DNA of 36,411 bases from a bacterium (GTDB lineage: Bacteria > UBP15 > UBA6099 > JAJRTR01): contig JAJRTR010000194.1 in the NCBI GenBank assembly GCA_024278215.1, forward strand, positions 1-36,411, given 5' to 3'. The first letter of the stretch is position 1; each line of letters begins with the position of its first letter. The notes under the pieces are model-generated. The model searched no databases. It was given only the letters and a program-made list of their open reading frames with translations, and had not been told where the DNA came from. The translations under genes were made by a program, and so were the position numbers. This document shows, piece after piece, positions 9,173 through 36,411 of this stretch.

Positions 9173-9175
9173 GAA

Positions 9176-10614: not shown

Positions 10615-10632
10615 ATGAAGTAAGGTGAAATA

Positions 10633-11919: not shown

Positions 11920-11925
11920 TATAAT
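11920..11925 (+). promoter_or_regulatory. Perfect TATAAT -10 box just upstream of repeat copy 2
   Basis: TATAAT lies so that a transcript would start near 11932, almost exactly at the first base of the repeat element (11933). The -35 region is poor (no TTGACA-like hexamer at 16-18 bp). If used, it would produce an RNA carrying the whole element as the 5' leader of the M48 protease gene. The rest of the gap after the acyl-CoA dehydrogenase gene (11788-11919) shows no other feature. Confidence 0.35.
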
Positions 11926-11932
11926 GTTAGAT

Positions 11933-12108: not shown

Positions 12109-12150
12109 GTTAGAATTATAATATTGTGAAGCTCTTCGAGAGAGAGTGTG

Positions 12151-13939: not shown

Positions 13940-13995
13940 CCTCTCTTCGTTTCAAACCCCACCGTTCCGACCTGCAAATTGGCTTTGATTGTTTG

Positions 13996-14022
13996 TTGAC
14001 ATAAAACAAGATAGAATATCAT
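13996..14022 (+). promoter_or_regulatory. Possible promoter of the Fe-S protein/DUF169 unit
   Basis: TTGACA (13996-14001) followed after a short 15-base spacer by TATCAT (14017-14022). The -35 is perfect, but the spacing is below the usual 16-18. The 112-bp gap after the thioredoxin gene otherwise shows no terminator hairpin. Confidence 0.3.
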
Positions 14023-14060
14023 ATCCTTACAATTGACATAAACCGGAGCATGTGTTTCGT

Positions 14061-14858: not shown

Positions 14859-14876
14859 GATAGAGGCAGAAAAGAC

Positions 14877-15650
14877 ATGTCGAATATAACTGTAAAAGTC
14901 GGGCCCCTTCCCGCCGGAATAAAAATAAACCCTTCAGGTTCCGGCGACTATCCGAAGGGGAAAGAGTATAAAGGCATTTCATATTGCGACGCGTTGCGCC
15001 GCGCGACTACCGGCAAAGGCGGCGCGCTGGTTATCGGGCCGGACTCGGTGAGCACCTGCCTGTGGAACCCGCAGGTTTTCGGTTTTAAGCCACCCGACGA
15101 CAGGTTCGATCTGAAAGTCGAATACTCGCTGCCCGGAAACACGGAAAACATTCTCATTGCGCCGCTGGATTATTATGAATCCGGTTATCCGCCGGATGTT
15201 GTTGTGATCAGGACTGTACCGAGCGAGGTCAGGAAGATATACAACGCGCTCGGCGAATCGAGATTCAACGTCGATATGGCGGGGCGGCTCGACCGGTCCG
15301 CGATTGAGATTTTCAGCGGAGGCGGGCGCGGGAGAGACAAGAGAAGAGTCAAAATCGTCAGCAGGATTCTCGGTGATCTGAACCAGTTTCCGGAATGGCG
15401 GGATTTCACAAAGTTTATTTTCAAATATGAATGGACAACATATATTTTCGATCTTTTTCTCGATCGTTTCCTCGCCAATATGTCGCTGTGCCGCAATGCG
15501 ACGGTTATACCGCACCTGACGGGCAAAGCAAACATATCATTTTTCTGTACCGGCGCTATTGCGTGGGGACTCAATAATCCGAGGCATATCGCATGCGGCA
15601 TCCCCTACCCTCTTGCCGAGGGCATCCGCTTTATTTCCGAAAGCGCATGA
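14877..15650 (+). CDS. DUF169 (COG2043-type) family protein
   Basis: A 257-residue soluble protein resembling DUF169. Supporting features are the 'GISYCDALRRAT' N-terminal segment (C37), 'STCLWNPQVFGF' (C61), a central 'VVVIRTVPSEVRKIYNAL' type segment, and the C-terminal 'SFFCTGAIAWG...IACGIPYPLAEGI', where conserved cysteines and GIP are typical of the family. The biochemical function of DUF169 is unknown to me. The family is common in anaerobes and archaea and often sits near Fe-S or metal-related genes, which fits the ferredoxin gene directly upstream. A ribosome site (GAGG) precedes ATG 14877. It is last in its two-gene unit and followed by a strong bidirectional terminator. Confidence 0.8.
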   Translation: MSNITVKVGPLPAGIKINPSGSGDYPKGKEYKGISYCDALRRATTGKGGALVIGPDSVSTCLWNPQVFGFKPPDDRFDLKVEYSLPGNTENILIAPLDYYESGYPPDVVVIRTVPSEVRKIYNALGESRFNVDMAGRLDRSAIEIFSGGGRGRDKRRVKIVSRILGDLNQFPEWRDFTKFIFKYEWTTYIFDLFLDRFLANMSLCRNATVIPHLTGKANISFFCTGAIAWGLNNPRHIACGIPYPLAEGIRFISESA

Positions 15651-15741: not shown

Positions 15742-16240
15742 TTACTTCGTTATTGTCAATACGCAACCTGTGTCTGCGACGTCGATCCAGTACCCGTACC
15801 ATGGAATGATGTATGCGCTGTCGTTCGCTTCGAGTTTCCTGTAGCCGAGCGTGTCACTGTAGTAATAAATCGGCACAAGGGTTTTCGATTGTCCGGAACA
15901 ATCGAGACTCACTTTGCTGTCACCCCAGAATATGCTTTCATTGAACGGGTCCGATATTACATTCCAGCCCTGCTGTAGTGTGATCTGATATGAGTTCCCT
16001 GAATAATCCGTTCCGTGCGCGCTTACCGCACCTATATCCGATTCGGAATATATCCAGAGACCTTCGGCGAAGTCCATATCGACCTTCGTTTCGGAAGTCA
16101 GGAACTCGAAGGTGCCGCCGGTCTGTTTCACAATTTCATAAACGTTCACGCCGAAGACTGTCGCCGGGCTGATGTAGGCGTTCTGCTGAGAGACGCCGAC
16201 GAGCGACCAGCCTTTATTGATGATGAGACCCGAGGCAGTC
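15742..16240 (-). other. C-terminal GW-module domain of the giant protein
   Basis: About 165 residues with two parallel modules, 'GLIINKGWSLVGVS...' and '...ITLQQGWNVISDPF', each followed by a 'GLWIYSES'/'GYWIDVAD' type strand. This resembles the 'GWNLIS' beta-rich domains at the ends of other large secreted bacterial proteins. No LPXTG, PEP-CTERM, OmpA-like, autotransporter or RTX signature is seen. Confidence 0.55.
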
Positions 16241-19200
16241 GGAGTAACAGTCGTGCGCGCGCCGTCGCTGTCGGCTGTCGAATAAACGGAACCGTCATAC
16301 GCGAACGCCGCATAGTAATATGTGTAGCCGTTTGTCAGGCCCGTATCAAGGAACGACTCGCCGGCACCGTCGTATACTTCCGTGCCGTCGACAATGCTCG
16401 AGGGATAGCCGCCGAGTTTCCTGATGATCTTCGTGCTTGTCGCGGCTTCCGGGTCGGTCCACATGAGCTGGGCTTCCGTGTCGCCTGCGAGCGCCGTCAT
16501 AGCAGTGACTTCGTCGAGTGTGCCGAGTTGCACTGTGACGCCGTCGGAGTTCGCTGGAGTCGACTCCATACCCGCGCCGTTTTCAGCTTTCACCGTGAAG
16601 TAGTAAGTCGAGCCGACAGAGAGAGAAAGTCCGGACTTCGTTACAGTCGTGGCGGTTGCGTTATCGGTCCAGGAAACGATGTCCGTGCCGCCCGCTGTCG
16701 TACCGACAGCATAGGAATATTTGACGATGCCGCTTTCGGCGTCGGTCGAGGCGGTCCAGTTGGCGGAAAGTTGTGTCTGTGAAGTCGTCGTGTCGACATC
16801 AGCGCCTGTGCCGTCGTTGACGGAAGCGATTGTCGACGGTGCAGTCGCGTCGATGGTCTGGCCGTCGGATGTTGTGACGTTCGATTGGAGGCCCGCGCCG
16901 TTTTCGGCTTTCACGGAGAAGTAATATGCCTGTCCGCCGGTCAATGACAGTCCGGTTTTCGTGACGCTGGTGTTCGTGCTGTTGTCAGTCCAGCCGACGA
17001 TGTCCGCGCCGCCCGCCGTTGTGCCGATTGCGTACCAGTAGCGGGCGATACCGCTTTCGGTGTCGGTCGACGCGGTCCAGTTGGCGGTTAGTTGCGTGAG
17101 CGATGAAGAGTAATCAATATCCGCGCCCGCGCCATCGTTGACCGTAGCGATATCCGTCGGGTTCGTCGAGTCGCCTCCCGTGACCTGCTGGCCGTCGGAG
17201 TTCGCGGGAGTAGACATCAGGCCGACGCCGTTTTCGGCTTTCACAGAGAAGAAATATGTCGATCCTTCAGTAAGAGAAAGTCCGGTTTTCGTGACGCTGG
17301 TGTCTGTACCGTTATCGGTCCAGCCGACGATGTCGGTGCCGCCCGCCGTTGTGCCTACCGCGTACCAGTAACGGGTGATGCCGCTTTCGGCGTCGGTCGA
17401 GTCGGTCCAGTTGGCGGTGAGCTGGACGAGCGATTGCGTCGTGTCTATGTCCGCGCCCGCGCCGTCGTTGACCGTCGTTATCGCCGAAGGCGCACTCGTG
17501 TCGACCGTATAATCCACATCTTCATTCGTATCGGCAGTATCCGCGCTGCCGCCTGTGTCCGAACACGCAATGTAGACGACTTCACTTCCTTCGGCAAGTG
17601 AATCCGCCGAGCATGTATGGAATGTGACGCCTGTGCCGGAGCAGGTATTCTGGGCGGGCATGTCGCCGTAGGCCTGGTCGCTGAGAGACCACTTGCACGA
17701 CGAGTTTTCGTCGGTATCGAAAGTGATCTCGACGGAAGTGCTTGTAAGCCCCGAACCTTTCGCCGGGTCCCAGTTGCTCTGGACAGGCGGATCGACATCT
17801 ATAGTGTAAGACAGTTCGGTGTTGGTCGAGGCGGAATGCGTATTGCCGATAGTGTCGGTGCAAGCGATATAGACGACATCCGATGTGCCGGTGAGTCCCG
17901 ATACGGAACAGGTATGGCTTGTGCCGCCGCCGCCCGCGCACGCGCCCGCGATGTCCATATCGCCGTAAGCTTCGTCCGCGAGAGACCATCTGCATGTCGC
18001 GTTCTCGTCGGTGTTAAGAGTGATCGTCGGCGATGTTGTCGTAAGAGTTGTTCCGGCTGACGGCGACCAGTTGCTCTGGACCGGCGCGGATACGTCGACC
18101 AGTTGTCCGTCCGAGTTCGCCACATCCGCGACAAGTCCCGCGTTATTCTCGGCTTTAACCGAGAAGTAATACGTCTGTCCGTCGGTGAGTGTCAGTCCGG
18201 TTATTGTAACCGATGTCGTCGCGCTGTTGTCGGTCCAGTCGACTACATCCGTGCCGCCCGCGGTCGTGCCGACAGCATACCAGTATTTCGCGACGCCGCT
18301 CTCGGTGTCGGACGATGCAGTCCAGTTCGCGGACAACTGGGTCGAGTCGCCTGTCGTATCGACATCCGCGCCGGTGCCGTCATTTACCGATGTTATGGTG
18401 GCCGGAGCGGTTGTGTCGATTGTCTGGCCGTCAGAATTTGTCGCGCCCGATTGCAATCCGGCTCCGTTCTGTGCTTTGACGGTGAAGTAATAAGTGTCGC
18501 CGTTCGTAAGACCGAGCCCGGTGCGCGTGACGTAAGTGACGGCGCCGTTATCAGTCCAGTCGACTACATCCGTGCCGCCCGCTGTCGTGCCGACAGCGTA
18601 CCAGTATTTCGCGATGCCGCTCTCGGTGTCCGACGACGCCGTCCAGTTGGCTGAAAGCTGGGAGGTAGAACCTGCCCACGACGCGTCGACACCGGTTCCG
18701 CTGCCGTCATAGACTGTCGCTATGTCGGACGGTGGAGTCGTATCGTTGAAGTCGGCGGTCGCACCGTAGGAGGTCGTTATATTCGACATCATGCCCGCGC
18801 CGTTCTCCGCCTTTACCGATACGTAATAAGTTACCCCGTCGGTGAGAGCGAGTCCGGTGCGTGTTACGGAAGTTTCTGTGCCGTTGTCGGTCCAGTCGGC
18901 AGTGTCGGTTCCACCTGCTGTCGTTCCGATAGCGTACCAGTAGCGCGCTATGCCGCTCTGCGGGTCGGTCGAAGCGGTCCAGTTCGCCGATATCTCCGTA
19001 CCTGAAGATATGACATTCGAGTCGACGCCGATTGTGCCGCCGTCGTAGACAGTAGCGATGTCGGTGGGCGCGGAAGCGTCGATGAAATAATTGATGTCGT
19101 CGTTTGTCGCAATGGTGTCCTCGTTGCCGAGAAGGTCGGCGCATGAAATATAGACGTAATCGGAGCCCTCGCTCATGCCGCTTACCGCGCAACTCTGGCT

Positions 19201-22200
19201 TGTAGTGCCGCCACCCGCGCAGGCGTTACCTGACGACATATCAGTGTATGACTGATCGGTGAGAGACCAGCGGCAATAGGCTTCCTCGTCCGTAGTCAGA
19301 GTTATCGAGGGCGATGTAGTGTATATGTAATCGCCCTTGTCCGGGTTCCACGCGCTCTGAACCGGCGGGCTCGCGTCTATAGTGTAATTTATATCTTCGT
19401 TCGTCGCCGCGCTGTCTTCATTACCGGCGGTGTCGGTGCATGAGATGTAAACGTATTCCGCACCTTCGGACATACCGGTTACCGCGCATGATTGCGATGT
19501 CGTGCCGCCGCCGGTACATTCGTTGCCCGCCGACATCGAACTGTAAGAATCGTCGGAGAGCGACCAGCGGCATGTCGCGTTTTCACTTGTTGTGAACGTA
19601 ATCGTCTGTGATGTGCTCGTGAGATACGAACCCTTCGCCGGGCTCCATCCGCTTTGCGACGGTGGACTCACATCCACGGTCTGGCCGTCGGATGTCGCGA
19701 CTGTGGATTCGACGCCGACGCCGTTCTCCGCCTTGACCGACACATAGTAAGTCTGGCCCGGAATAAGTGTAAGTCCGGAGACACTTACTGTTGTAACGAG
19801 CGCGTTGTTCGTCCAGTCGACGACATCGGTTCCACCGGCGGATGTGCCGACGGCATAATAATAACGGGAAATTCCGCTTTCCGAATCGGACGATGAAGTC
19901 CAGTTGGCCGACAGATCGGTCGTCGACGCGACGTAGTCGATGTCCGAGCCTATGCCGTCGCTTACGGTGACGGTGGACGGCGGTGTGGAGTCGACAGTTG
20001 CGCCGTCGGAGTTTGTCGCGCCGGATTCAAGTCCCATTCCGTTTTCAGCTTTGACAGTGAAGAAATATTGCTGGCCGTGGCTGAGGCTGAGACCTGTCTT
20101 CGTTACGGAAGTGTTTGTGCCGTTGTTTGTCCAGGAAACAACGTCCGTAGCCCCGGCAGTCGTTCCTATCGCGTACCAGTATTTCGCGATTCCGCTTTCG
20201 GGATCGGACGAGCCGGTCCAGTTGGCAGACAGCTGGGTTGTGCTGCCCGTTACGTCGATATCCGAGCCGGTGCCGTCATAAACATCGGCGATGTCGGAGG
20301 GCGGCGTCGAATCCGACAGGTTGACCTGCTGCCCGTCGGAACTGACGACATTCGACAACAGGCCCGCTCCGTTCTCCGCCCTGACGGAGAAATAATATGT
20401 AGTACCGTCGGCGAGCGCGAGCCCTGTGTGTGTGACGGAAGTGTTCGTGCCGTTGTCCGTCCAGTCGACGACATCCGTGCCGCCCGCGCTTGTGCCTATT
20501 GCATACAGATACCTGACAATGCCACTCTCGGCGTCGCTGGAGGCTGTCCAGTTGGCGGAAAGCTGCACGCCGGATGTAGTCGTGTCTATATCGCTTCCCG
20601 TGCCGTCGTTGACAGTCGCGACGTCCGCGGGTGCGGTGTCGTCTACCGTATAGCCGAGGTCTTTATTTGTCGACGTTGTGTTCCCGTTGCCCTGTATGTC
20701 CTCACATGCGATATACACATACTCGGCGCCCGTGCTCATTCCGGTTACGGAACAACTGTGGTTTGTGGACGCCGCACCGGAACATGTGTTTTCGACGGGC
20801 ATCGAACTGTAGCCGTAGTCGGTAAGCGACCATCGACATGTGCTCGCTTCGTTCGTGTTCAGAGTGATGGTCACCGAAGTGTCCGACAGATATGAACCGG
20901 CCGCGGGCGACCAGTTGCTTTGTATCGGATCGCCGGTATCGACCGTGTAAGTAAGTTCCGTATTCGTGATCGAAGTGTCGGCGTTGTTATTTTCATCTAT
21001 GCAGTTCAGATACACTATATTCGCGCCCTCGGAAAGGCTTGTGACGCTGCATGACTGGCTTGTCGTGCCGCTGCCGCCGCAAATATTGCCCGGAGCGATA
21101 CTGCCGTAATCAGCATCCGCGCCCGCAAATTTACACGTCGCGTTTTCATCGGTATCGAAGGTAACCGTCGGGTTTGTCGTGCCGATTACCGAACTGTCGG
21201 CGGGCGACCAGTTACTCTGCACCGGGGGCGATGTGTCGAGCGTCGCGCCGTCGGAGGTCACAGTGCCCGACGTAAGGCCGGCCCCGTTTTCCGCCCTGAC
21301 GGATACATAATAAGTCTGTCCTTCCGTGAGTCCCAGCCCCGTCTCCGTCACAGATGTATTGGTTCCGTTATTCGTCCATGCGACAACGTCCGTTCCGCCC
21401 GCCGTCGTGCCTATCGCGTAGTAGTAAGCGGCGATACCGCTTTCCGCGTCGGACGACGCGCCCCAGTTTGCGGAAATCTGCGATGAATTTGTAATTACGT
21501 CCACATCGCTTCCCGTGCCGTCGTACAAGTAGGAGACATCGGCGGGAATGGTCGTGTCGATTGTCTGGCCGTTGGAACTCGTGGTTCCGGATTCGAGCCC
21601 AACGCCGTTCTGCGCTTTGACGGTGAAGTAATAGGTGTTCCCGTTCGTAAGTACGAGACCGGTTTTTGTAACCGATGTGTTCGCGCCGTTGCCGGTCCAG
21701 TCGACGACATCAGTCGCGCCCGCCGTCGTGCCTATCGCGAAGTAATATGCGGCGATTCCGCTTTCGGCGTCGGATGAGGCGGACCAGTTGGCCGAAAGCT
21801 GCGAGGCCGAGCCGGCCCATGTCATGTCGATGCCGATATCGGCACCGTCATAGACAATCGCGATGTCGGACGGTGCGGTCGTGTCGCTGAAGTCGGCGGT
21901 CTGGCCGTCGGAGGTAGTGACGCCCGACATCATGCCCGCGCCGTTTTCCGCCTTGACCGACACGTAATACGCCTGTCCGTCGTTCAGGGCGAGTCCCGTC
22001 GCGGTCATGTACGCGTTTGTTCCGCTGGTTGTCCAGTCGCGAACATCGGTGCCGCCGCTCGTCGTGCCGATTGCGTACCAGTAGGCGTCGATACCGCTCT
22101 GCGGATCAGACGACGCCGTCCAGTTGGCCGACAACTGCGTGCCGGATGTCACTGTGTCGATGTCCACGCCCGTAGTACCGCCGTCGTAGACGGTGGCGAC

Positions 22201-25200
22201 ATCCGCGGGCGCGGAAGTATCTATAGTGTAGTTAATATCTTCGTTGGTCGAGGCTGTTTCCTCATTCGCGTTGAGGTCCACGCACGATATGTACACGAAA
22301 TCGGAACCTTCGCTGAGGCCCGACACGGAACATGTGTGTCCTGTCGTGCCGCCGCCGGTGCAGACGTTCGCTCCGGGCATTGCGCTGTAATCGTTGTCGT
22401 TCAGTTCCCATCGGCAATAGGCGGCTTCGTCGGTCGTCAGGGTAATAGTCGGAGAAGTCGTGTATATGAACGCGCCTTTCGCCGGGTCCCACGCGCTCTG
22501 CGCGGGCGCCGTCGTGTCGACTGTGTAACCTATGTTCTCATTTGTTGTCGCGTCGTCCTCGTTTCCTGCTTCGTCGGCACATGCGACGTATACATATTCC
22601 GCACCTTCGTTCATCCCTTCGACAGCACACGACTGGCTGGTTGTCCCCGCACCGGAACACTGGTTCGCGGGCGGCATCGTCGAGTATGAATCGTCTGTTA
22701 GCGACCAGCGGCAGTAAGCGGCTTCGTCGGTCGTCAGGGTCAGAGTCATGGCGGCGCTCGTGACAGTCGCGCCCTTCGCCGGGTTCCACGCGCTCTGTAC
22801 GGGTGTCGACAGGTCGAGTTTCTGGCCGTCGGACGTCGCGACATCCGACTCCAGATTTACGCCGTTTTCCGATTTGACGGAAACGTAATACGTCGTGCCG
22901 TCGGTGAGTGTCATGCCCGATTTCGTGAATGAAGTCGCAAGCCCGTTGTCGGTCCAGCCGACGACATCCGCACCGCCCGACGTCGTGCCGATAGCATAAA
23001 GATATCGTGTTATGCCGCTCTCGGCGTCCGTGGACGCGGTCCAGTTGGCGGATAGTGAAGTTGTTGATGTGATGAAGTCGACATCGACGCCCGTACCGTC
23101 ACTGACTGTAACGGCGGAAGGCGCGGTCGCGTCGACGGTGACACCGTCGGAAGTCGTCACGGAAGATTCGAGCCCCATACCGTTCTCGGCCTTCACGGAG
23201 ATGTAGTAATCCTGATTCTGCGCGAGGCTCAGCCCAGTGTGCGTCATCGAAGTGCTCAGCACGTTATCCGTCCATGTAACAATGTCTGTACCGCCGGGCG
23301 TTGTGCCGATTGCATACCAGTACCGGGCAACGCCGCTTTCCGGATCGCTCGACGATGTCCAGTTGGCCGAAAGCTGCGTCGTCGAGGCCGTCATGTCGAT
23401 GTCCGCGCCGGTTCCGTCATACACCGATGTGATGTCGATGGGCGGCGTCGAGTCGGTCAACTCGACCATCTGGCCGTCCGAACTCACCGCGTTGGATTCG
23501 AGTCCCGCTCCGTTTTCGGCTTTGACCGACACGTAATATGTCACACCGTCGGAAAGCGCGAGTCCGGACTTCGTTACGGAAGTATTTGTACCGTTGTCCG
23601 TCCAGTCGACAACGTCCGTGCCGCCCGACGTCGTGCCGATAGCATACCAGTACTTCGCCACGCCGCTTTCGGCGTCGCTCGACGCGGTCCAGTTCGCCGA
23701 AAGTTCCGTGCCGGATGTCGTCGTATCAATATCGGCGCCCGTGCCGTCGCTTACGGAAGCGACATCGGCCGGAGCCGTGTTGTCTATAATATAACTGAGG
23801 TCCTTATTTGTCGTTTCGGAGTTTTCATTGCCGAGCGCATCCGCACACGCGACATACACTGCCTCCGCGCCTGTGCTCATGCCGGTTACCGAACAACTAT
23901 GGCCCGTCGCGCCGCCGCCCGAACATGTGTTCGCAGGTGCCATGGAGCTGTACGCGGAGTCCGTGAGCGACCATCGGCATGTCGCGTTTTCATCGGTATT
24001 CAGGGCTATCGTTTCGGAAGTATCCGACAGGTACGAACCCGATGCGGGCAGCCAGTTGCTCTGTACCGGTTCCATCGTATCGACCGTGTAACTCAATTCG
24101 GTGTTTGTCGACGCGGAGTCCTCATTGCCCGCGACATCAGAACATGCAGTGTATACCATGTTCGCGCCTTCGCTCAGGCCGGTGACGGAACAGATATGAC
24201 TGGTTGTTCCGGTGCCGCTGCAATCGTTCCCGGACATGCCGTCGTAGGAGAGGTCGGAGAGCGACCACCTGCAACTCGCGTTCTCATCAGTCGAGAATGT
24301 CACCGAGGGCGATGTTGTCGATAATGACGCGCCGTCCGACGGGTTCCACGCGCTCTGCACGGGAGTGGACAGGTCGACTGTAGCGCCGTTTGAACTCACG
24401 ATGCCGGAAGTGAGCCCGGCGTTGTTTTCCGCCCTGACGGATATGTAATATGTCTGTCCGTCCGTCAGGCTCAGCCCGGTTTTCGTGAACGACAGGTTCG
24501 TCCCGTTGTCTGTCCAGTCGACAACGTCCGTGCCGCCCTCGGTTGTGCCGATTGCATACCAGTACTTCGCCACGCCGCTTTCGGCGTCGCTCGACGCGCT
24601 GTAGTTGCCGGAAATCTGCGTATATGAATATATATATGTCTCGTCGGCGCCTGTGCCGTCGTAGACATAAGTGACATCAGCAGGCGCGGTATTGTCGAGT
24701 GTCTGGCCGTTGGAACTCGTCGTCCCGGACTGGAGCCCTACCCCGTTTTCAGCCTTGACGGTGAAGTAATAGGCCTGGCCGTTCGTAAGTGTCAGCCCTG
24801 TGCTTGTAACGGACGTGACCGCGCTGTTGTCGGTCCAGTCGACGACATCGTTTCCGCCCGCGGTCGTACCGATTGCATACCAGTAGCGCGCCACGCCGCT
24901 TTCCGCGTCGGCGGAATCCGTCCAGTTGGCGGAAAGCTGTGTGGACGAGCCTGTCCATGTTATATCCACACTTACCGTATCGCCGTCATAAACGGTCGCG
25001 ACATCAGATGGCGGTGTCGAATCGGTGAAGTCGGCGGACTGGCCGTCCGAGGTCGTCACATTTGACAACATTCCGGCACCGTTCTCCGCCCTGACCGACA
25101 CGTAATACATTTGTCCGTTCGTGAGCGACAGCCCGGTTTTCGTGACGTAAGTCAAAGCGCCGTTGCTCGTCCAGTCCACGATGTCCGTGCCGCCGATGCT

Positions 25201-25437: not shown

Positions 25438-28400
25438 TTAGGCACCTTCGATAAGCCCGGAGACTGCGCAACTCTGGCTCGTCGTGCCGCCGCCTGAGCA
25501 AGCGTTCGATCCTGACATTCCGGAGTAAGCGTCGTCGGTGAGCGACCAGCGGCAATACGCGGCTTCGTCGGTCGTCAGTGTTATAGTCGGCGATGTCGTG
25601 TCGACATACGCGCTCTTTGCCGGGTTCCACGCGCTCTGCGCGGGCGGCAGTGTGTCGATCGTATAATCAATGTCTTCATTTGTCGATGAATCGTCGGAGT
25701 TGCCCGCCTCGTCCATGCAGGCGACATATACATATTCCACGCCTTCAGATAGTCCGGTGACATCGCACGACAGTGAAGTAGTTCCACCGCCCGAGCACTG
25801 ATTCGCGCCGGACATCGAGCTGTACGAGATGTCCGACTGCGACCAGCGGCAATACGCGGCTTCGTCGGTCGTCAATGTAATAGTCGGCGATGTAGTTGTG
25901 AGCGTCGAGCCTTTTGCCGGGCCCCACGCGCTCTGCACAGGCGTTGTGAGGTCGAGCTTCTGGCCGTCGGATGTGGCGACTGCCGATTCGACCCCCACAC
26001 CGTTCTCGGACTTCACAGAGACGTAATATGTCGTGCCGTCGACAAGTGTCAGCCCGGAATTCGTGACTGTCTGCGACGTGCCGTTTCCCGTCCAGTCGAC
26101 TATGTCGGTACCTCCGGAAGTTGTTCCGACAGCGTAATAATATGCGATGACACCGCTTTCGGCGTCTGTCGATGCCGTCCAGTTGGCGGAGATAGTCGTC
26201 GCGGAAGTAATGAAATCGACATCCGCGCCCGTGCCGTCACTCACGGTTACCGCGGACGGCGCGGTGGCGTCGACCACAACACCGTCCGACGTTGTCGTGT
26301 TCGACTGGAGTCCCATACCATTTTCCGCCTTGACCGTGAAGTAATACGTCACTCCATGTGAAAGGGGCAGACTGCCGCGCGTCACGGATGTGTTGGTGCC
26401 GTTGTCGGTCCAGCCCGCGAGTTCGCCGCCGCCCGGCGTGGTTCCTATCTGATACCAGTATTTCGCCACGCCGCTTTCGGCGTCGGACGAAGCGGTCCAG
26501 TTGGCGGACAACTCCGTAGTCGATCCCGTAACATCGATATCGGTGCCAGTGCCGTCATATACACTTGTTATGTCCGAAGGCGGAGTCAGGTCCGACAGGT
26601 CGACAGTCTGGCCGTCCGAACTGTTGGCCGAACCGATCAGCCCCGCGTTGTTTTCCGCCTTGACCGCTACATAATAAAGTTGCCCGTCGGACAGCGCGAG
26701 CCCTGTTTTTGTGAAGGAAAGATTTGTTCCGTTGTCTGTCCAGTCGACTATTTCGTTGCCGCCGGCGGATGTGCCGATTGCGTACCAGTACTTCGCGACG
26801 CCGGTTTCCGGATCGGACGCCGCCGTCCAGTTGGCGGACATCTGTGTAGCCGATGTCGTTATGTCGATATCCGCGCCCGTGCCGTCGTTTATAGTGGCAA
26901 CCATAGTCGGCGGTGTTATGTCTACGATATATGAAAGTTCCGAATTTGTCGTGTCCGAGTTTTCATTATCGACCGGGTCCGCACACGCGATATAAACATT
27001 CTGTGTGCCGGTGCTGAATCCGTTTGTGAAGCACGAATGGCTCGTGGACAAAGAACCCGAGCAGGTGTTGCCGGAGAACATCGAGCTGTACGCGAGGTCG
27101 GACAGCGACCATCGGCATGTCGCGATTTCATCGGTGTTCAGATCAATAGTTGCCGAAGTGCCTGTAATGTACGAACCGTCCGACGGGTTCCAGTTGCTCT
27201 GCACCGGCTCCTGTGTGTCAACAGTGTAGTCGAGTTCGGTATTCGACGCCGCAGAATCCTCATTCCCCGCGACATCTGCGCACGCGACATACACTACCTG
27301 CGCACCTTCGACAAGTCCGGTTACGGAACATGTATGGGCTGTCGACTGCGATACATCGCAGGTGTTGCCGCCCGGCATCAGGTCGTAGGAAGTATCGGTC
27401 AGTGCCCAGCGGCACGAGGCGTTTTCATTTGTGGTGAATGTGACAGTCGGCGTGGACGTCGCTATAGTGTCGCCGTCCGCCGGGTCCCAGCCGCTCTGCA
27501 CAGGCAGCGAAGCGTCCACACGCTGTCCGTTCGAGCTTACAGGCGTGGATTCGAGTCCCGCGCCGTTCTCGGCCTTAACTGTCACATAATATATCTGGCC
27601 GTCCACCAGCGTGAGCCCGGAGCGCGTCACGGAAGTATTCGTGCCGTTATCCGTCCAGCCCGCGATACCCGTCCCGCCTGCCGTTATGCCGATGGCATAC
27701 ATGTATCTCACGATTCCGCTGCCGGGGTCCGACGAGGCCGTCCAGTTCGCGGAAAGCTGTGTGAGCGAAGTGGAGTAATCGACATCCGCGCCGGTACCGT
27801 CGTTGACAGTCGCAATATCGAGCGGCGGGCTGGTATCCACAAGCACACCGTCGGATGTCGCCACCGATGATTCGAGCCCGACACCGTTCTGCGCTTTTAT
27901 CGACACATAATAAGTCTGGCCGTCGATGAGAGTGAGCGCTGTTCTGGTGAGGTTCGTGCTGATTCCGTTACTCGTCCAGTCCACGATGTCCGTGCCGCCA
28001 GCAGTCGTGCCGACAGCGTAATAATAGGCGGCGATTCCACTTTCAGGATCGGAAGACGCCGTCCAGTTGGCGGAAAGCTGCGAGCCGAGCCCCCACAGGT
28101 CGACATCCGCGCCGGTGCCATCGTTTACAGTTGCGATGTCGGCGGGAGGCGTGGAGTCCGCGAAGTCCGTCTGCTGGCCGTCCGAACTCACGGGATTTGA
28201 CTCCAACCCCGCCCCGTTTTCCGCTTTGACCGTGAAGTAATAAGTAGTAGCGTCCGAAAGTGAGAGCCCCGTTCTGGTGACATTCACGCCGGTTCCGTTA
28301 TCCGTCCAGTCCACGATGTCCGTACCGCCCGCCGTCGTGCCTATCGCGTACCAGTAGGCGGTTATCCCGCTGCCGGTGTCGCTCGAGGCCGTCCAGTTCG

Positions 28401-28443
28401 CGGAAAGCGTGGTGCCCGATGTAACTGTATCTATATCGACATG
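19027..28443 (-). repeat. Ten-domain super-repeat, period 3135-3141 bp
   Basis: The landmark codon in the first A repeat of the 'type I' triplet (the residue before V-D-I-D in 'VYDG...VDIDT') starts at 28441, 25306, 22168 and 19027, giving spacings of 3135, 3138 and 3141 bp (1045-1047 codons). Within each period two five-domain blocks (AAABB, about 1.57 kb) differ consistently. Type II third A repeats begin 'VTVSDGTG' and their following B pair reads 'QSAWxPAKG'; type I B pairs end in 'QSNWxPxxGSYL'. The phase breaks N-terminal of about 30 kb, where B runs lengthen. This points to growth by duplicating the ten-domain unit (inference). Confidence 0.8.
25438..25440 (-). other. In-frame TAA nonsense codon inside a B repeat
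   Basis: The minus strand reads ATC GAA GGT GCC TAA TAT GTG TAT ATC GCC TGC. Sister repeats read E-G-A-E-Y-V-Y or E-G-A-D-Y-V-Y here; for example 'NEGAEYVYVAC' at about 22.6 kb uses GAA. GAA to TAA is one base change. The following base is T, which gives an efficient stop context, so natural readthrough is not favoured. Confidence 0.9.
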
Positions 28444-31400
28444 GTATGTGCTGCCGTCGTAAACAGTCGCCACATCCGACGGGGCGGTCGTGTCGATCGT
28501 ATATGATATATCCTCGTTGGTGGACGCCGTGTCTTCGTTTGCCGCTGTGTCGATGCAGGCGACATAGACATAATCAGCGCCTTCGCTCAATCCCGTCACA
28601 GCGCACGACTGTGTTCCTGTTCCCGCGCCCGAGCATTCGTTGCCCGCCGACATACTGCTGTATGCGTCATCTGTGAGCGACCAGCGGCAGGTGGCGTTTT
28701 CATCCGTTGTGAACGTGAGTGTAGTCGAACTCGTGGCGAGGAAAGAATCTTTCGCCGGGTTCCAGTTGCTCTGTACCGGCGGCAGTGTGTCCACCGTGTA
28801 ATTCAATTCCGTGTTGGATGCCGCCGAGTCGTAGTTGCCTGCTTCGTCGTTGCAGGCGAGATATACATATCCACTGCCCTGCGAAAGTCCCGACACCGCA
28901 CAGGACTGACTGGTTGTGCCGCCGCCCGTACATATATTGCCGCCGGGCATGGATGTGTACGCGACATCGCTGAGCGACCAGCGGCAGGTGGCCGCCTCGC
29001 CGGTTGTGAATGTCAATGTTGCCGATGTGTCGGTGAGCGTCGAGCCGTCCGCCGGGTTCCACGCGCTCTGCACGGGTGTCGATATGTCCAGCGTCTGGCC
29101 GTCCGAACTCGCGGGCGTCGACAGGAGACCGGCCTCGTTCTCGGCAGTTACGCAGAAGTAATATGTCGTTCCGTCAGTAAGTGTCAGGCCTGTCGCCGTT
29201 ACGCTCAGTGAAGCGCCGATGTCCGTAAGGCCCACGACTTCCGTGCCGCATGATGTGGTGCCGATAGAATACCAGTAGCCCGCTATGCCGCTCTCAGAGT
29301 CCGAGGAAGCGGTCCAGTTCGCGGACAGTTGGCTCGTGTCTGTTGTATAAGTGATGTCCGCGCCGGTTCCGTCGCTTACAGTGACCGCGGCGGGGGCGCT
29401 GCTGTCGATTGTCACACCGTCGGAATCCGCGGGATTGGACTCGAGCCCCATCCCGTTTTCGGCCTTGACCGTGAAGTAATACGTCTGCCCGTCAGTCAGC
29501 GACAGGCCGGTTTGGGTGACGGAAGTATTCGCGCTGTTGTCGGTCCATGCGACGACATCCGTGCCTCCCGCCGTTGTGCCGACGGCATACCAGTATTTCG
29601 AGACGCCGCTTTCGGGATCGGATGAAGCCGTCCAGTTTGCCGACAGTTGTGTTGTCGAACCGTCGAAGTCGATGTCCGAGCCCGTACCGTCGTTCACCGT
29701 TGCAATGTCCGACGGCGGCGTGCTGTCCGTGAAGTCCGCAACCTGGCCGTCGGAACTTGTCGTGAATGAAACAAGGCCCGCGCCGTTCTCGGCTTTCACA
29801 GTGAAGTAATATGTTTCGTCGTCCGTGAGCGCGAGTCCCGATCTCGTGACGGAAGTGCTCGGGCCGTTGTCCGTCCAGTCGACGAGGTCGTTTCCGCCCG
29901 CCGTTGTTCCTATCGAATACCAGTACCTTGTTATGCCTGTTTCGGCATCGGCGGAGGCTGTCCAGTTCGCTGAAAGTTCGGTACCCGATGTTGTCGTATC
30001 GATATCCGCGCCCGTGCCGTCGTTCACGGTTGTAATGGTATCGGGCGGCGTTGTATCTATCGTATAATCAATATCTTCATTTGTTGCGGAAGTATCTTCA
30101 TTGGACATAATGTCCGTGCACGAAATATAGACATATTCAATTCCCTGCTGTAGTCCTGAAGTCGAACACGAATGGCTTGTCGTGCCGCCTCCGGTACAGT
30201 TGTTGGACGATGAAATGGAACTGTAGCCGAGGTCTGTAAGCGACCATCGGCAATAGCCTGTTTCGTCGGTTGTGAATGTTATAGTCGGCGAATCAGTGCC
30301 CACGATACTTGATTTGGCGGGCGACCACGCGCTCTGCACGGGTGGACTGTAATCGACCGAATAGCTAAGTTCCGAATTCGTCGACACCGTGTCGCCGTTG
30401 CCCGCGGTGTCCTCGCAAGCGATATAGACGATTTCAGTGCCTTCGCTCATGCCCGCGACAGAACACGACTGGCCGTAAGTTCCCGCGCCCGAGCATGTCG
30501 CTCCGGAGGACATCGCGCTGTACGACTGATCCGAAAGCGACCACCTGCATGTCGCGTTTTCGTCCGTTCCGAATGTTATGTCGGTGGCGGAACTCGTGAT
30601 CGTCGAACCCGGCGACGGGCTCCAGTTGCTCTGCACAGGCGTCGAAAGATCGACGGTATAATTTATGTTTTCATTCGTTGCGTCCGAGTCCTCGTTGCCA
30701 AGCGAGTCCACACACGCGATGTATACATATTCCGAACCTTCGATGAGGCCGGTGGGATAGCACGTCTGTGAAGTCGAGTCGATACCGTCGCAGGTCTTAA
30801 GCGATGGAATGGAGGCATACGCGCCGTCGGTGAGCGACCATCTGCATGTCGCGTTTTCATCGGTCGTGAAAGTGATGGAAGGCGCGGTCGTATTGATGCT
30901 GCTGCCTTTGGCGGGCGACCATCCGCTCTGCTCCGGCGGCGATATATCGACAGTCTGGCCGTCGGACACGACAGGCGTCGATTCGAGCCCGGCGTTGTTC
31001 ACAGCCTTTATGCTGAAGTAATAAGTCGCACCGCCGCCAAGTGAGAGTCCGGAATGTGTGACGGAAGTGTTCGTGCCGTTGTACGTCCAGTTTACAATAT
31101 TCGTCGAGCCCGGTGATGAACCGACGGCATAATAATAGCCTTCGACATCGCTTTCGGCATCGATCGAGGCTGTCCAGTTGGCCGAAAGAGTGGTGAGCGA
31201 GTTAGTGGAATCTATGTCCGCGCCGGTACCATCGTTCACCGTTGCGACATCGTCGGGCGGCGTATTGTCTATCGTCTGGCCGTCCGAACTCACGGCAGTC
31301 GATTTCAGTGCCGCGCCGTTCTGTGCCTTTACGCTGACGTAATATGTCTGTCCGTTTGTAAGTGAGAGTCCATATATAGTGTCTGAAGTCACCGGCCCGT

Positions 31401-34400
31401 TGGTGCTCTGCCATGTCACGACATCCGTCGCGCCCGCGGTGGTGCCGATAGCCATCCAGTATGTGGATATCCCGCTTTCCGGGTCGGATGCTGCATCCCA
31501 GTTCGCCGACAATGTTGTCGTCGAGCCGGAATAGACGGCATCCGCGACCAGCCCGTCATAAACGTACGTTACGGGCGACGGTTCGGTCGAATCCGTGAAA
31601 TCGGCCATCTGGCCGTCGGAACTCACTTCGCCCGACTCGAGGCCTGCCCCGTTTTCCGCCTTCACAGTGAAGTAATACATCTGATCGTCGACAAGTGAAA
31701 GCCCCGTATGCGTGACCGACGTATTCGCGCCGTTGTCGGTCCAGCCGACGACATCGACGCCGCCCGCCGTTGTGCCGATAGCGTACCAGTATTTCGCTAT
31801 TCCGCTTTCGGCGTCGGTGGAAGCCGTCCAGTTGGCCGAAAGGATCGTCCCGAGCGCCGTAACGTCAATGTCCGCGCCTGTGCCGTCGTTTACTGCGGCC
31901 ACATCCGCGGGGGCTGTCGTATCTATCGTGTAATTTATTTCAGTGTTGTCCGCCGCGATATGGCTGTTGGCGAACATGTCGGTGCAGGCGATGTACACGA
32001 CTTCGGCACCGGTCGTCAGACCGCTCGCCGAGCATATATGAGATTTCGTGCCGCCGCCCGCGCATGTGTTCGCTCCCGGCATCGTATCGTAATCGTCGTC
32101 GGTGAGCGACCACCTGCATATCGCGTCCTCATCCGTGTTCAGGTCGATAGTCGGCGATGTATTCGGCAGGTACGAACCATCCGCCGGGTCCCAACTGCTC
32201 TGCACCGGCGGTGTCGTGTCCAGCGTGTAGGCGATGCTCTCGTTGGTGGACGCGGTGTCTTCATTGCCGTAGTCGTCCGTACACGCGGTATATATCGTGT
32301 TCGCGCCTTCTGCAAGTCCGGTCACGGAACAACTGTGGTTGGTTGTTGACGTGCCGCAACTGTTTCCGCCCGGCATGGCCGAGTAAGCCTGGTCTGTGTC
32401 CGACCACCTGCATGTCGCGGATTCGTCTGTATCGAAAGCGACAGTCGGCGTCGCGGTATTAACGGTGGAATCCTTCGCGGGGTTCCAGTTGCTCTGAACC
32501 GGAGCCGTCGTGTCGACAGTGTAGTCGAGGTCGGAATTCGTCGAAACAGAATCGGCGTTGTCCGCCATATCGACACAGGAAATGTACACGATTTCCGGAC
32601 CTTCGGACAGGCCGGTTGTCGAACAGGTATGCGAGGTTGTGCCGCTGCCCGCACACTCATAGGTTATCGGAATAGAATAATAGGGCAGGTCGGAGAGCGC
32701 CCAGCGGCACGTGGCGTTTTCGTCGGTATTGAAGGAGATGGCCTGCGAAGTCGATGTAAGCACAGTGCCGGTCGCAGGGCTCCAGCCGCTCTGTGACGGC
32801 AGGGTCGTGTCGAAGGTCTGGCCGTCGGAAGTCGTCACGCCCGATTGCACGCCCGCATAGTTCTCGGATTTCGCCGACACGTAATACGTCTGAGCTTCGA
32901 CAAGTGTAAGCCCGGTTCTGGTCACACCTTCGGAGAAGCCGACGTCCGTCCAGTCCACCACATCCGTAGCGCCCGCGGAAGTGCCGATCGCATACCAGTA
33001 GCGAAAAAGCCCGCTTTCATTATCGACGGCGGCGTCCCAGTTCGCCGCCAGCCTGTCGGAATCCGTCGTGAAATCTATATCCAGGCCGTTACCGTCCCTG
33101 ACTTCGGCGAGGTCGCCGGGTGGTGTGATGTCGACAGTCTGCCCGTCGGAACTTGTCGCCGCCGACTCGAGTCCCGCGCCGTTCTCCGCCTTAATGCTGA
33201 TGTAATATGTCTGCGTGTCGGTCAGGGAGAGTCCCGTCATCGTAGCAGTTGTCGACGTCGCGTTATTCGTCCAGTCGACAACGTCTGTAGCCCCCGCCGT
33301 CGTTCCGGCCGCGTACCAGTACGCGGTTATGCCGCTTTCCGGGTCCGATGAAGTGCTCCACGTGGCGGACAATTGTGATGCCGAGCCGACAAAGTCGATA
33401 TCCGAGCCTGTGCTTCCGTCATAAACAGATGATATTCCGGACGGTGGCGTCGTGTCGATGAAGTCCGTGGTCTGGCCGTCGGAGGTCGTAACATTCGACA
33501 TAAGCCCCGCGCCGTTTTCAGCTTTGACGGACACATAATAGGTGGTGCTGTCCGACAGGGAGAGCCCGGTAGCCGTCACAGTCGTTGCCGTCGCATTGTC
33601 GGTGTATGTCCTGATATTCGTGCCGCCCGGCGTCGTGCCGATGGCATACCAGTAGCTCACGATCCCGCTTTCCGCGTCGGCGGAAGCCGTCCAGTTGGCG
33701 GAAAGCTGTACGCCCGAAGTCGCGGTGTCTATATCCACACCGATGCCTTCGCCGTCATATACGGTTGCTATGTCCGACGGCGGGGTGGTGTCGACAGTAT
33801 AAGTAAGCTCGGAATTCGAAGCGGCATCGTCCGCGTTGGACAATGTGTCCTCGCAAGCGAAGTAAACAACCTGCGTACCGCCTGAAAGTCCCGACAGTGA
33901 ACAGGAATGATATGTGCTGCTGTCACCCGAACAACTGCCCGCCATCGAGGCGTAATCCTGGTCGGTGAGCGACCATTTGCAGGAAGCGATTTCGTCGGTG
34001 TCGAAAGTGATCGTCGGCGACGTGCTCGAAACATAAGTGCCGGACGCCGGGTCCCAGTTGCTCTGCACCGGCGGGGTGCTGTCGACATTGTAGAACAGAT
34101 CGGTGTTGCCGGACGCGGAGTCCTCATTCGCATAGAGATCGACACAAGCGATATAAACATAATCCAGTCCTTCGGACAGACCGCTTACGGCGCAACTCTG
34201 GCTGGTGGAAAGAGCGCCCGAACATTCGTTGCCCGCGCCCATTGTCGTGTAATCCGTATCACTCAGAGACCACCTGCAAGTCGCCGCTTCATTCGTTGTA
34301 AATGTTATAGTCGGCGAATTCGTGCCCACTGTCTGGGATGTCGCGGGGTACCAGCCGCTCTGCACCGGCGGCGTCGTGTCCACAACATAGTAGAGCGCAG

Positions 34401-36411
34401 TATTTGTGAGGGAAGTGTCCGAATTGGACTGCATATCCTCGCAGGCGACAAATATATATTCGCCGCCCTCGTCGAGCCCGTCCGCATCGCACGAATGGCT
34501 TGTGGTTCCCGTTCCCGAGCATTCATTCCCGACAGCCATATCGTCATACCCGAGATCGGTGAGCGCCCATCTGCATGTCGCGTTTTCGTCCGTATTAAAA
34601 GTTATTGTCTGTGATGTCGTTGCGAAAACGGTTCCCGTCGCCGGGCTCCAGTTGCTCTGCACCGGCAGAGTGGTGTCTATTGTGTAGCCGAGTTCGGAAT
34701 TGGTCGTGTTCGTGTCCTCATTGCCCTGAAGATCGGAGCAGGAAATATATAATGTGACAGAACCTTCGCTCAGACCGCTGACGTTGCATGTGAGGCTGGT
34801 GGTGCCGCCGCCGCCGCACGTGCGCACGGACGTAATGTCGCTGTAACCATCGTCGGTCGTCGACCACCTGCATGTCGCGTTTTCGTCGGTATCGAATGTA
34901 ATCGCTACAGAAGGCGAAGTCAGCGACGCGCCGTCCGCCGGGTTCCAGTTGCTCTGCACCGGCGTCGACAGGTCGACGATGTACGTCACCGCTTCATTCG
35001 TCGCGGATGTATGCTCATTGCCGTCACCGTCCGTACACGCGAAGTATACAGTCTGCGTCGCCGCGCCGAGTCCCGTCACCGAACAGCTTTGCAACTTTGT
35101 CGCCGCGCCGGAACATTCATTGAGCGCCGGCATCGCGCTGTAGCCGTTGTCGTTCTGCTCCCACCTGCATGTCGCGTTCTCGCCGGTAACGAATGTGACG
35201 GTCGGCGACGCGGTCGCAATGGATGTTCCGTCCGCCGGTGCAATGCTGGAAATCACAGGCGGCAGGGTGTCTATACTGTAAGTAAGACCCGTGTTTGTAT
35301 CCGCCGAATCCTCGTTGCCGGAAGTATCGGCACATGCGAGATAAACAGTTACAACACCTTCGGAAAGCCCCGCGGTCTGGCAACTCTGGCTCGTCGTGCC
35401 CGCGCCCGAACATTCGCTGCCCGCTCCCATAGTCGTATAATCGGTATCGCTCAGCGACCACCTGCACGTTGCGTTTTCGTCGGTAGTGAAAGTTATCGCC
35501 GGTGTCGAGGTCGCGAGATTCGAGCCGTTGACCGGGCTCCAGCCGCTCTGTGCCGGAGGCGATACATCCACGAGCACGCCGTCCGAACTCTGCGGAGTCG
35601 ACTGCGCCCCGACACCGTTCTCCGCTTTGACGGTTATGTAATACATGTGACCGTCGCCGAGTGACAGTCCTGAGATCGTTACCGTTCTCGAAACGCCGTT
35701 ATCCGTCCATCCCACAAGGTCCGTCGCTCCGAGCGTCAGCCCGGCGGCATACCAGTACTTCGCTATCCCCGTTTCAGTATCTGACGAAGTCGTCCAGTTC
35801 GCGGACAGCGCGGAATCGCTGGTAATGACGTCGATGTCCGCGCCCGTGCCGTCTGCAACAGAGACATCCGACGGCGGTGTCGCGTCGACCGTCTGGCCGT
35901 TGGAACTGGTAGCGTTGGACATAAGCCACACGCCGTTCTGGGCCTTGACGGAGAAATAATATGTCTGGCCATCGACAAGTGAGAGTCCGGTCTTCGTGAC
36001 GGAAGTCGCCACGCCCACATTCGTCCAATCGACGACATCGGTTGCACCGGCGGTAGTTCCGATTACATACCAGTACCTGTATATTCCACTTTCCAGGTCG
36101 GATGAAGTCGCCCAGTTGGCCGACAACTCGGAAGTCGAGGCCGTATAAGAAACATCGGAACTGAGGCCGTCGTATACCCACGAAATATCTGAAGGCGGAG
36201 TGCTGTCGTCGAAGTTCGCCATCTGGCCATCGGACGACACCGGAGTGGATTCGAGCCCCGCGCCGTTTTCGGCCTTTACGGAGAAATAATATACCTGGTC
36301 GTCGATAAGCGACAAACCAGTGCGGGTGACGGATGTCGATGTGGCATTATCAGTCCAATCGACAATGTCGACGCTGCCGGCGGATGTGCCGATAGCATAC
36401 CAGTATTTCGC
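25438..36411 (-). CDS. Giant repeat protein, upstream part (5' partial; ends at the internal TAA)
   Basis: At least 3,657 residues: open at the window edge (first visible codons read 'AKYWYAIGTSAG') and ending '...SCAVSGLIEGA' at the TAA. It contains 18 A repeats (one partial) and most of 18 B repeats. A repeats read roughly V-x-DGTGADIDTT..., NWTASSDxESGI, YWYAIGTTAGGTDVVDWT, GLSLTDGQTYY, VKAENGAGLxS, SDGQ, in an FN3-like strand pattern. B repeats read PVQSNW-P-GS, TDENATCRWSL, a Cys about 15-18 residues later, SQSC, GLSEG, VYIACTD, NED, YTVDTT. B runs here are 6 (about 33795-35562), 3, 3, 2, 2 and 2. The stop falls between the third and fourth cysteine of the last B repeat, so this product would end in an unpaired half-domain. 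No signal peptide or start codon is within the window. Confidence 0.85.
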   Translation of the reverse strand, partial: AKYWYAIGTSAGSVDIVDWTDNATSTSVTRTGLSLIDDQVYYFSVKAENGAGLESTPVSSDGQMANFDDSTPPSDISWVYDGLSSDVSYTASTSELSANWATSSDLESGIYRYWYVIGTTAGATDVVDWTNVGVATSVTKTGLSLVDGQTYYFSVKAQNGVWLMSNATSSNGQTVDATPPSDVSVADGTGADIDVITSDSALSANWTTSSDTETGIAKYWYAAGLTLGATDLVGWTDNGVSRTVTISGLSLGDGHMYYITVKAENGVGAQSTPQSSDGVLVDVSPPAQSGWSPVNGSNLATSTPAITFTTDENATCRWSLSDTDYTTMGAGSECSGAGTTSQSCQTAGLSEGVVTVYLACADTSGNEDSADTNTGLTYSIDTLPPVISSIAPADGTSIATASPTVTFVTGENATCRWEQNDNGYSAMPALNECSGAATKLQSCSVTGLGAATQTVYFACTDGDGNEHTSATNEAVTYIVDLSTPVQSNWNPADGASLTSPSVAITFDTDENATCRWSTTDDGYSDITSVRTCGGGGTTSLTCNVSGLSEGSVTLYISCSDLQGNEDTNTTNSELGYTIDTTLPVQSNWSPATGTVFATTSQTITFNTDENATCRWALTDLGYDDMAVGNECSGTGTTSHSCDADGLDEGGEYIFVACEDMQSNSDTSLTNTALYYVVDTTPPVQSGWYPATSQTVGTNSPTITFTTNEAATCRWSLSDTDYTTMGAGNECSGALSTSQSCAVSGLSEGLDYVYIACVDLYANEDSASGNTDLFYNVDSTPPVQSNWDPASGTYVSSTSPTITFDTDEIASCKWSLTDQDYASMAGSCSGDSSTYHSCSLSGLSGGTQVVYFACEDTLSNADDAASNSELTYTVDTTPPSDIATVYDGEGIGVDIDTATSGVQLSANWTASADAESGIVSYWYAIGTTPGGTNIRTYTDNATATTVTATGLSLSDSTTYYVSVKAENGAGLMSNVTTSDGQTTDFIDTTPPSGISSVYDGSTGSDIDFVGSASQLSATWSTSSDPESGITAYWYAAGTTAGATDVVDWTNNATSTTATMTGLSLTDTQTYYISIKAENGAGLESAATSSDGQTVDITPPGDLAEVRDGNGLDIDFTTDSDRLAANWDAAVDNESGLFRYWYAIGTSAGATDVVDWTDVGFSEGVTRTGLTLVEAQTYYVSAKSENYAGVQSGVTTSDGQTFDTTLPSQSGWSPATGTVLTSTSQAISFNTDENATCRWALSDLPYYSIPITYECAGSGTTSHTCSTTGLSEGPEIVYISCVDMADNADSVSTNSDLDYTVDTTAPVQSNWNPAKDSTVNTATPTVAFDTDESATCRWSDTDQAYSAMPGGNSCGTSTTNHSCSVTGLAEGANTIYTACTDDYGNEDTASTNESIAYTLDTTPPVQSSWDPADGSYLPNTSPTIDLNTDEDAICRWSLTDDDYDTMPGANTCAGGGTKSHICSASGLTTGAEVVYIACTDMFANSHIAADNTEINYTIDTTAPADVAAVNDGTGADIDVTALGTILSANWTASTDAESGIAKYWYAIGTTAGGVDVVGWTDNGANTSVTHTGLSLVDDQMYYFTVKAENGAGLESGEVSSDGQMADFTDSTEPSPVTYVYDGLVADAVYSGSTTTLSANWDAASDPESGISTYWMAIGTTAGATDVVTWQSTNGPVTSDTIYGLSLTNGQTYYVSVKAQNGAALKSTAVSSDGQTIDNTPPDDVATVNDGTGADIDSTNSLTTLSANWTASIDAESDVEGYYYAVGSSPGSTNIVNWTYNGTNTSVTHSGLSLGGGATYYFSIKAVNNAGLESTPVVSDGQTVDISPPEQSGWSPAKGSSINTTAPSITFTTDENATCRWSLTDGAYASIPSLKTCDGIDSTSQTCYPTGLIEGSEYVYIACVDSLGNEDSDATNENINYTVDLSTPVQSNWSPSPGSTITSSATDITFGTDENATCRWSLSDQSYSAMSSGATCSGAGTYGQSCSVAGMSEGTEIVYIACEDTAGNGDTVSTNSELSYSVDYSPPVQSAWSPAKSSIVGTDSPTITFTTDETGYCRWSLTDLGYSSISSSNNCTGGGTTSHSCSTSGLQQGIEYVYISCTDIMSNEDTSATNEDIDYTIDTTPPDTITTVNDGTGADIDTTTSGTELSANWTASADAETGITRYWYSIGTTAGGNDLVDWTDNGPSTSVTRSGLALTDDETYYFTVKAENGAGLVSFTTSSDGQVADFTDSTPPSDIATVNDGTGSDIDFDGSTTQLSANWTASSDPESGVSKYWYAVGTTAGGTDVVAWTDNSANTSVTQTGLSLTDGQTYYFTVKAENGMGLESNPADSDGVTIDSSAPAAVTVSDGTGADITYTTDTSQLSANWTASSDSESGIAGYWYSIGTTSCGTEVVGLTDIGASLSVTATGLTLTDGTTYYFCVTAENEAGLLSTPASSDGQTLDISTPVQSAWNPADGSTLTDTSATLTFTTGEAATCRWSLSDVAYTSMPGGNICTGGGTTSQSCAVSGLSQGSGYVYLACNDEAGNYDSAASNTELNYTVDTLPPVQSNWNPAKDSFLATSSTTLTFTTDENATCRWSLTDDAYSSMSAGNECSGAGTGTQSCAVTGLSEGADYVYVACIDTAANEDTASTNEDISYTIDTTAPSDVATVYDGSTYHVDIDTVTSGTTLSANWTASSDTGSGITAYWYAIGTTAGGTDIVDWTDNGTGVNVTRTGLSLSDATTYYFTVKAENGAGLESNPVSSDGQQTDFADSTPPADIATVNDGTGADVDLWGLGSQLSANWTASSDPESGIAAYYYAVGTTAGGTDIVDWTSNGISTNLTRTALTLIDGQTYYVSIKAQNGVGLESSVATSDGVLVDTSPPLDIATVNDGTGADVDYSTSLTQLSANWTASSDPGSGIVRYMYAIGITAGGTGIAGWTDNGTNTSVTRSGLTLVDGQIYYVTVKAENGAGLESTPVSSNGQRVDASLPVQSGWDPADGDTIATSTPTVTFTTNENASCRWALTDTSYDLMPGGNTCDVSQSTAHTCSVTGLVEGAQVVYVACADVAGNEDSAASNTELDYTVDTQEPVQSNWNPSDGSYITGTSATIDLNTDEIATCRWSLSDLAYSSMFSGNTCSGSLSTSHSCFTNGFSTGTQNVYIACADPVDNENSDTTNSELSYIVDITPPTMVATINDGTGADIDITTSATQMSANWTAASDPETGVAKYWYAIGTSAGGNEIVDWTDNGTNLSFTKTGLALSDGQLYYVAVKAENNAGLIGSANSSDGQTVDLSDLTPPSDITSVYDGTGTDIDVTGSTTELSANWTASSDAESGVAKYWYQIGTTPGGGELAGWTDNGTNTSVTRGSLPLSHGVTYYFTVKAENGMGLQSNTTTSDGVVVDATAPSAVTVSDGTGADVDFITSATTISANWTASTDAESGVIAYYYAVGTTSGGTDIVDWTGNGTSQTVTNSGLTLVDGTTYYVSVKSENGVGVESAVATSDGQKLDLTTPVQSAWGPAKGSTLTTTSPTITLTTDEAAYCRWSQSDISYSSMSGANQCSGGGTTSLSCDVTGLSEGVEYVYVACMDEAGNSDDSSTNEDIDYTIDTLPPAQSAWNPAKSAYVDTTSPTITLTTDEAAYCRWSLTDDAYSGMSGSNACSGGGTTSQSCAVSGLIEGA
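33795..35562 (-). repeat. Run of six consecutive four-cysteine B repeats
   Basis: Six B repeats follow one another without an A repeat, opening with 'PPAQSGWSP', 'PPVISSIAP', 'PVQSNWNP', 'LPVQSNWSP', 'PPVQSGWYP' and 'PPVQSNWDP'. Elsewhere B repeats come in threes (about 31926-32811 and 30058-30950) or twos. Each has the four cysteines in the same order. Boundaries are approximate, derived from residue counts. Confidence 0.75.

Follow-up and report, generated by a model that had tools for sequence, protein, structure and literature searches.

A giant bacterial surface-protein candidate in which FN3-like and four-cysteine beta-sandwich domains form an old ten-domain super-repeat

The best-known examples of regular super-repeats made of two domain types with a linker code are giant muscle proteins, titin among them. 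The A-band region of titin is organised in Ig/FN3 super-repeats containing FN3 triplets, in which domains at the same position resemble one another, linkers are position-specific and growth has occurred by duplication of the super-repeat (PMC10665226). In bacteria, the available parts of two reports describe very large, presumed extracellular and poorly annotated proteins in Apilactobacillus (lactic acid bacteria) and Omnitrophota (PMC12863079, PMC10066038). The protein analysed here is similar to them in size and presumed location but differs from the architectures described in the available text of these reports, in which no mention of fibronectin domains was found. An independent bacterial case with old copies makes it possible to test if this kind of order is only a by-product of duplication or is kept for spacing and mechanics.

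The window, i.e., the whole stretch of 36,411 nucleotides analysed, is an entire contig (JAJRTR010000194.1, C172) of a 4.55-Mb genome in 207 contigs from a barely sampled phylum. A giant gene on the minus strand (36411 to 15742; 6,890 codons in one frame with a single internal stop) encodes a Ser/Thr-rich and acidic protein (pI 4.05) of at least 6,800 residues. The contig end cuts the 5′ part of this gene, so that the N-terminus is missing. Motif- and HMM-based segmentation into two domain types, A and B, gave the following features:

36199..36411, minus strand, first A domain, incomplete at the contig end; its linker has 13 residues, as is typical when an A comes after a B
35560..36198, minus strand, second and third A domains of the opening triplet (segmentation)
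33784..35559, minus strand, six B domains (segmentation)
32803..33783, minus strand, A triplet (segmentation)
31915..32802, minus strand, three B domains (segmentation)
30940..31914, minus strand, A triplet (segmentation)
30049..30939, minus strand, three B domains (segmentation)
17494..30048, minus strand, eight AAABB units that alternate between two types, i.e., four 10-domain super-repeats (segmentation, identity by lag, clades)
25438..25440, minus strand, TAA in frame within B domain 35, the sole stop before the gene end
16519..17493, minus strand, last A triplet (segmentation)
16228..16518, minus strand, divergent FN3-like stretch, recognised by eye and without a Pfam match
15745..16227, minus strand, terminal 'GW' domain, ending at the stop codon 15742-15744 and without a Pfam or NCBIfam family

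The 64 domains (36 A, the first of them partial, and 28 B) follow the order (A)AA B6 AAA B3 AAA B3 (AAA BB)x8 AAA, then a divergent FN3 and a terminal domain of about 156 residues. A sequence-only reading of this stretch had announced at least 64 domains, with A solely in threes (twelve triplets) and B in runs of 2, 3 or 6, and this description is accurate for the gene in the window: all 12 A runs are triplets (the first cut by the contig end), and the B runs succeed one another as 6, 3, 3 and then eight times 2. The same reading placed the protein built from the two repeats at 15742-36411; within this range, 15745-16518 is not A/B but holds the divergent FN3-like stretch and the terminal domain. 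If the 36 A and 28 B domains were arranged randomly, every A run would be exactly three with a probability of 4.6e-11, the realistic null for this constancy being tandem block duplication rather than random placement. The positions within a triplet can indeed be told apart (p 5e-4 by permutation within triplets), also by their linker lengths, and the longer 'ADFxDST'-like tail ascribed to first A repeats is present in 11/11 testable ones, as well as in the partial one.

Both domain types had been expected to be FN3- or Ig-like beta-sandwiches, and the evidence supports this for A and, tentatively, for B. The A domain appears to be FN3-like from its sequence matches: two stretches of the protein score 56 and 63 bits against Pfam fn3 (PF00041), above the curated cut-off of 25, and the PDB sequences that match belong to FN3 chains, from Neogenin and from titin (a titin FN3 pair at E 0.002). 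For the B domain, the evidence is a confident AlphaFold2 model (pLDDT 97.5), which is all beta except for a short helical turn. Foldseek searches with this model returned weak matches, none at E <= 0.001, to CopC/Ig-like domains (TM about 0.6) and to domains of the S-layer protein SbsC (E 9e-3). No Pfam Ig-like family among Big_13, HYR and Big_7 reached its curated cut-off or matched B convincingly (the best was Big_13, with E 1e-3 in 12/71 copies, the others being weaker), and PDB sequences included no convincing relative and no titin Ig match. B may be described, on the basis of its model, as a putative four-cysteine Ig-like sandwich. Its four cysteines (C32, C50, C60 and C76) are invariant in 71/71 copies from several genomes, which suggests the formation of two disulfides per domain, with C32-C76 and C50-C60 as the expected pairs, and would suit an oxidising exterior. 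Because of these invariant cysteines and the confident fold, we regard B domains as compact modules, probably disulfide-locked, rather than as passive linkers.

The profile searches over genomes that the sequence-only reading had recommended showed that A is widespread and B almost limited to the host phylum. A domains occur in named loci of Elusimicrobiota, Chloroflexota, Armatimonadetes, Marinimicrobia and others. The A-only arrays of Elusimicrobiota and other bacteria repeat the same domain up to 19 times in a row, with 46-58% identity in the best-matching segments, but no B was found in the 17 A-bearing genomes searched outside the phylum, and these arrays hence have no A/B order. B is present in 7/7 genomes of the host phylum, all from one order, and weakly in 2/379 others, and is essentially confined to this phylum.

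Similarity between the eight AAABB units follows an alternating pattern. The units belong in turn to a type X and a type Y; identity is 0.674 at a lag of two triplets vs 0.628 at a lag of one, with even lags above odd ones; four of the units form a single clade (support 97/96), and none of the other splits among the 35 possible for the eight units does as well as the alternating one. Since the types alternate, duplication copied a block of ten domains, about 1,046 residues in length and of the form AAABB(X)-AAABB(Y), and not AAA. Protein identity between units is 55-71%, and four-fold synonymous sites are 0.34-0.48 identical vs 0.35 expected by chance. This combination of near-saturated synonymous sites with retained protein identity indicates that the block duplications are old and that the domains have since been under purifying selection; a recent tandem expansion can be discarded, given the near saturation of four-fold sites. 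We consider the strict order to be mainly a fossil of block duplication.

Linker lengths obey a rule that depends on the neighbours. Within the window, the linker has 13 residues in 11/11 A domains preceded by B and followed by A, and 10 residues in 12/12 second A domains (Fisher p 7e-7), and in other proteins of the phylum it has 13 residues in 5/5 B-A-A cases and 10 in 26/33 measurable cases of A after A (Fisher p 5e-4), the copies counted in both tests being related and not independent trials. The junction rule (13 residues for an A between B and A, usually 10 elsewhere) holds across the phylum, and the linker longer by three residues probably makes for a regular joint or a regular spacing. 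As the partial first A has a 13-residue linker, a B domain is expected just past the contig end.

Paralogs and relatives allowed us to ask how far the triplet order extends. The most informative paralog, C34 (L010), is complete (3,583 residues) and starts with a hydrophobic leader, recognised by eye, and an M6 metallopeptidase; a single A and a beta-helix region of NosD type precede A6 B6 AAA B3 AAAA, and the protein ends with the same terminal GW domain. C34 shares with the giant protein the A and B domains, a B6-AAA-B3-AAA core, 13-residue linkers after B and the terminal domain, and differs from it in being complete, in its M6 peptidase and NosD-type beta-helix, in having A-runs of 6 and 4 besides 3 and in the absence of the 10-domain expansion. 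In the same genome, C118 (L011) carries an S8 peptidase (subtilase) head on an A/B stalk, C107 displays A-runs of 7, 5, 1 and at least 3, and C118 and C1 show orders of the ABBA...ABBBA type, while two relatives from the same order (G001 and G006) have A7 B2 A4. Because A-runs of 1, 3, 4, 5, 6 and 7 thus occur among paralogs and same-order relatives, 'A only in threes' is no rule of the family, and the triplet order belongs to one gene.

This bears on the proposal that AAA is a functional unit, for binding or mechanics, with selection acting on the triplet and B runs serving as adjustable spacers. The exact triplets of all 12 A runs in the window and the distinguishable triplet positions speak for it, as does an order that outlasted duplications old enough to bring synonymous sites near saturation. 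We nevertheless find the proposal unlikely: A-runs of 1, 4, 5, 6 and 7 exist elsewhere in the family, similarity tracks the 10-domain block, and constant triplets are expected from block duplication alone. As a general grammar it also lacks support because B is a compact domain with four cysteines, probably disulfide-locked. Random mixing of A and B in wider sequence had been named as what would make the grammar unremarkable, and the varied A-runs go part of the way in that direction.

The frame of the giant gene is the same throughout, over 6,890 codons with no frameshift and no second internal stop, but it is not one intact ORF: the TAA at 25438-25440 breaks it into parts of at least 3657 and 3230 codons and would truncate the protein as assembled. 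Reassignment of the stop codon is ruled out as an explanation: genes in the window terminate with TAA, TAG and TGA, and TAA is therefore a stop in this code. Possible origins of the internal TAA are a recent nonsense change, a strain variant or an assembly error. That the gene is a decaying pseudogene, whose downstream half is no longer made, seems quite improbable to us; such decay would agree with the in-frame TAA under standard stop usage and with a downstream half devoid of a leader of its own, but the 6,889 other codons contain neither a stop nor a frameshift, amino acids are conserved on both sides of the TAA while synonymous change is near-saturated, so that any decay must be very recent, and an assembly error is equally possible.

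The terminal GW domain is an all-beta domain of about 156 residues without a family in Pfam or NCBIfam. Its structure model (pLDDT 93.8, pTM 0.88) retrieved nothing better than E 0.05 from the PDB with Foldseek, and the modelled fold may be new. An HMM built in this analysis identified 40 copies in the fetched loci of the host phylum (GW-bearing loci being the window, 15745-16227 on the minus strand, and L010, L011, L028, L039, L041 and L145-L162). In this phylum, GW is often paired, at a distance of about 340 residues, and the last copy of a protein nearly always lies 4-10 residues from the C-terminus, although three proteins have it near the N-terminus instead. GW was detected in 80/372 genomes searched, 73 of them outside the phylum, corresponding to about 20% of the sampled unrelated bacteria. 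In most sampled cases outside the phylum, it is located about 260-290 residues before the C-terminus and is followed by a segment resembling, by eye, a FlgD/T9SS-type tail. This offset and the three N-terminal cases weaken the idea that GW is a strictly C-terminal sorting tag. The T9SS tail Por_Secre_tail (PF18962) is absent from the C-terminus of the giant protein, which ends in GW, and produced a single sub-threshold match elsewhere in the genome; a search of the genome for SprA gave no match, and neither did the same search in the control genomes. As far as searched, neither B nor GW has a convincing Pfam/NCBIfam family or a near neighbour by fold in the PDB, and since GW is widely distributed, describing it would provide an annotation for the terminal parts of numerous large secreted proteins.

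We think it probable that the product of this gene is a giant surface protein that is exported, that has a rod-like A/B stalk, a GW end, and a leader and head as in C34, and that has grown by old block duplication. The stalk would contain no fewer than 64 beta-sandwich domains, 36 of type A and 28 of type B. By analogy with C34, its missing N-terminus would carry a leader peptide, followed by a head with an enzymatic or binding role, and the GW module would close the stalk at the opposite end. Growth would have proceeded by old tandem duplications, the last of them that of the 10-domain block AAABB-AAABB, with the domains themselves retained by purifying selection. FN3 and Ig domains measure about 3.5-4 nm; 64 of them in line would give a stalk of roughly 0.22-0.26 µm, which could display the head away from the cell for adhesion or degradation at a distance. 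Stiff stretches of locked B domains may alternate with yielding stretches of FN3-like A domains, and the 13-residue linkers may act as a regular joint.

The arrangement invites comparison with the A-band of titin. Two beta-sandwich types, a fixed super-repeat, FN3 triplets, position-specific linkers and growth by super-repeat duplication are common to both, and the giant protein displays the features of a titin-like super-repeat, namely a fixed multi-domain period with same-position similarity and position-specific linkers (13 vs 10 residues). The periods are 7 and 11 domains in titin vs 10, as (AAABB)2, in the bacterial protein. The latter also differs in its B domain, which carries four invariant cysteines and does not match titin Ig in sequence, and in having no thick-filament partner. 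Searches for whole-protein homology to titin returned generic FN3 matches only, and the likeness is an analogy, not a whole-protein relationship. The statement that no described family has this arrangement holds for bacteria as searched, but an arrangement of the same kind is present in the A-band of titin (PMC10665226). We offer with much reserve the further idea of a bacterial counterpart of titin, in which disulfide-locked B and FN3 A domains, with a 10-domain period and a 13/10 linker code setting the pitch, would be held at the surface by a GW domain of undescribed fold, which about a fifth of the sampled bacterial genomes would place at the C-terminus, or close to it, in large secreted proteins. 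That the protein builds a lattice, as an S-layer-like or sheath component, instead of single stalks is very unlikely, since the indications for this, the acidic composition (pI 4.05) and the weak Foldseek match of B to SbsC (E 9e-3), have against them the M6 and S8 heads of paralogs, which suit head display, and the fact that B matches other Ig-like folds at least as well as it matches SbsC.

C107, with a gene running off its 3′ end, was considered as the missing N-terminal part of the giant gene; its orientation is compatible with this, but the two sequences do not overlap, and C1 fits C107 equally well or better. The contig ends of C107 (L012) and C1 (L009) are perhaps halves of another A/B giant, likewise with no sequence overlap. 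No RNA families or tRNAs were found in searches across the window. The neighbours of the giant gene (1-15650) encode an AMP-binding ligase, Tex, a cyclase, an acyl-CoA dehydrogenase, an M48 peptidase, a thioredoxin-like protein, an Fe-S protein and a DUF169 protein, in a region with a GC content of 42-53% vs 56-60% in the giant gene. Elsewhere in the data, C198 (L152) harbours an open frame of 5,232 codons with two GW domains and otherwise scattered weak Pfam matches.
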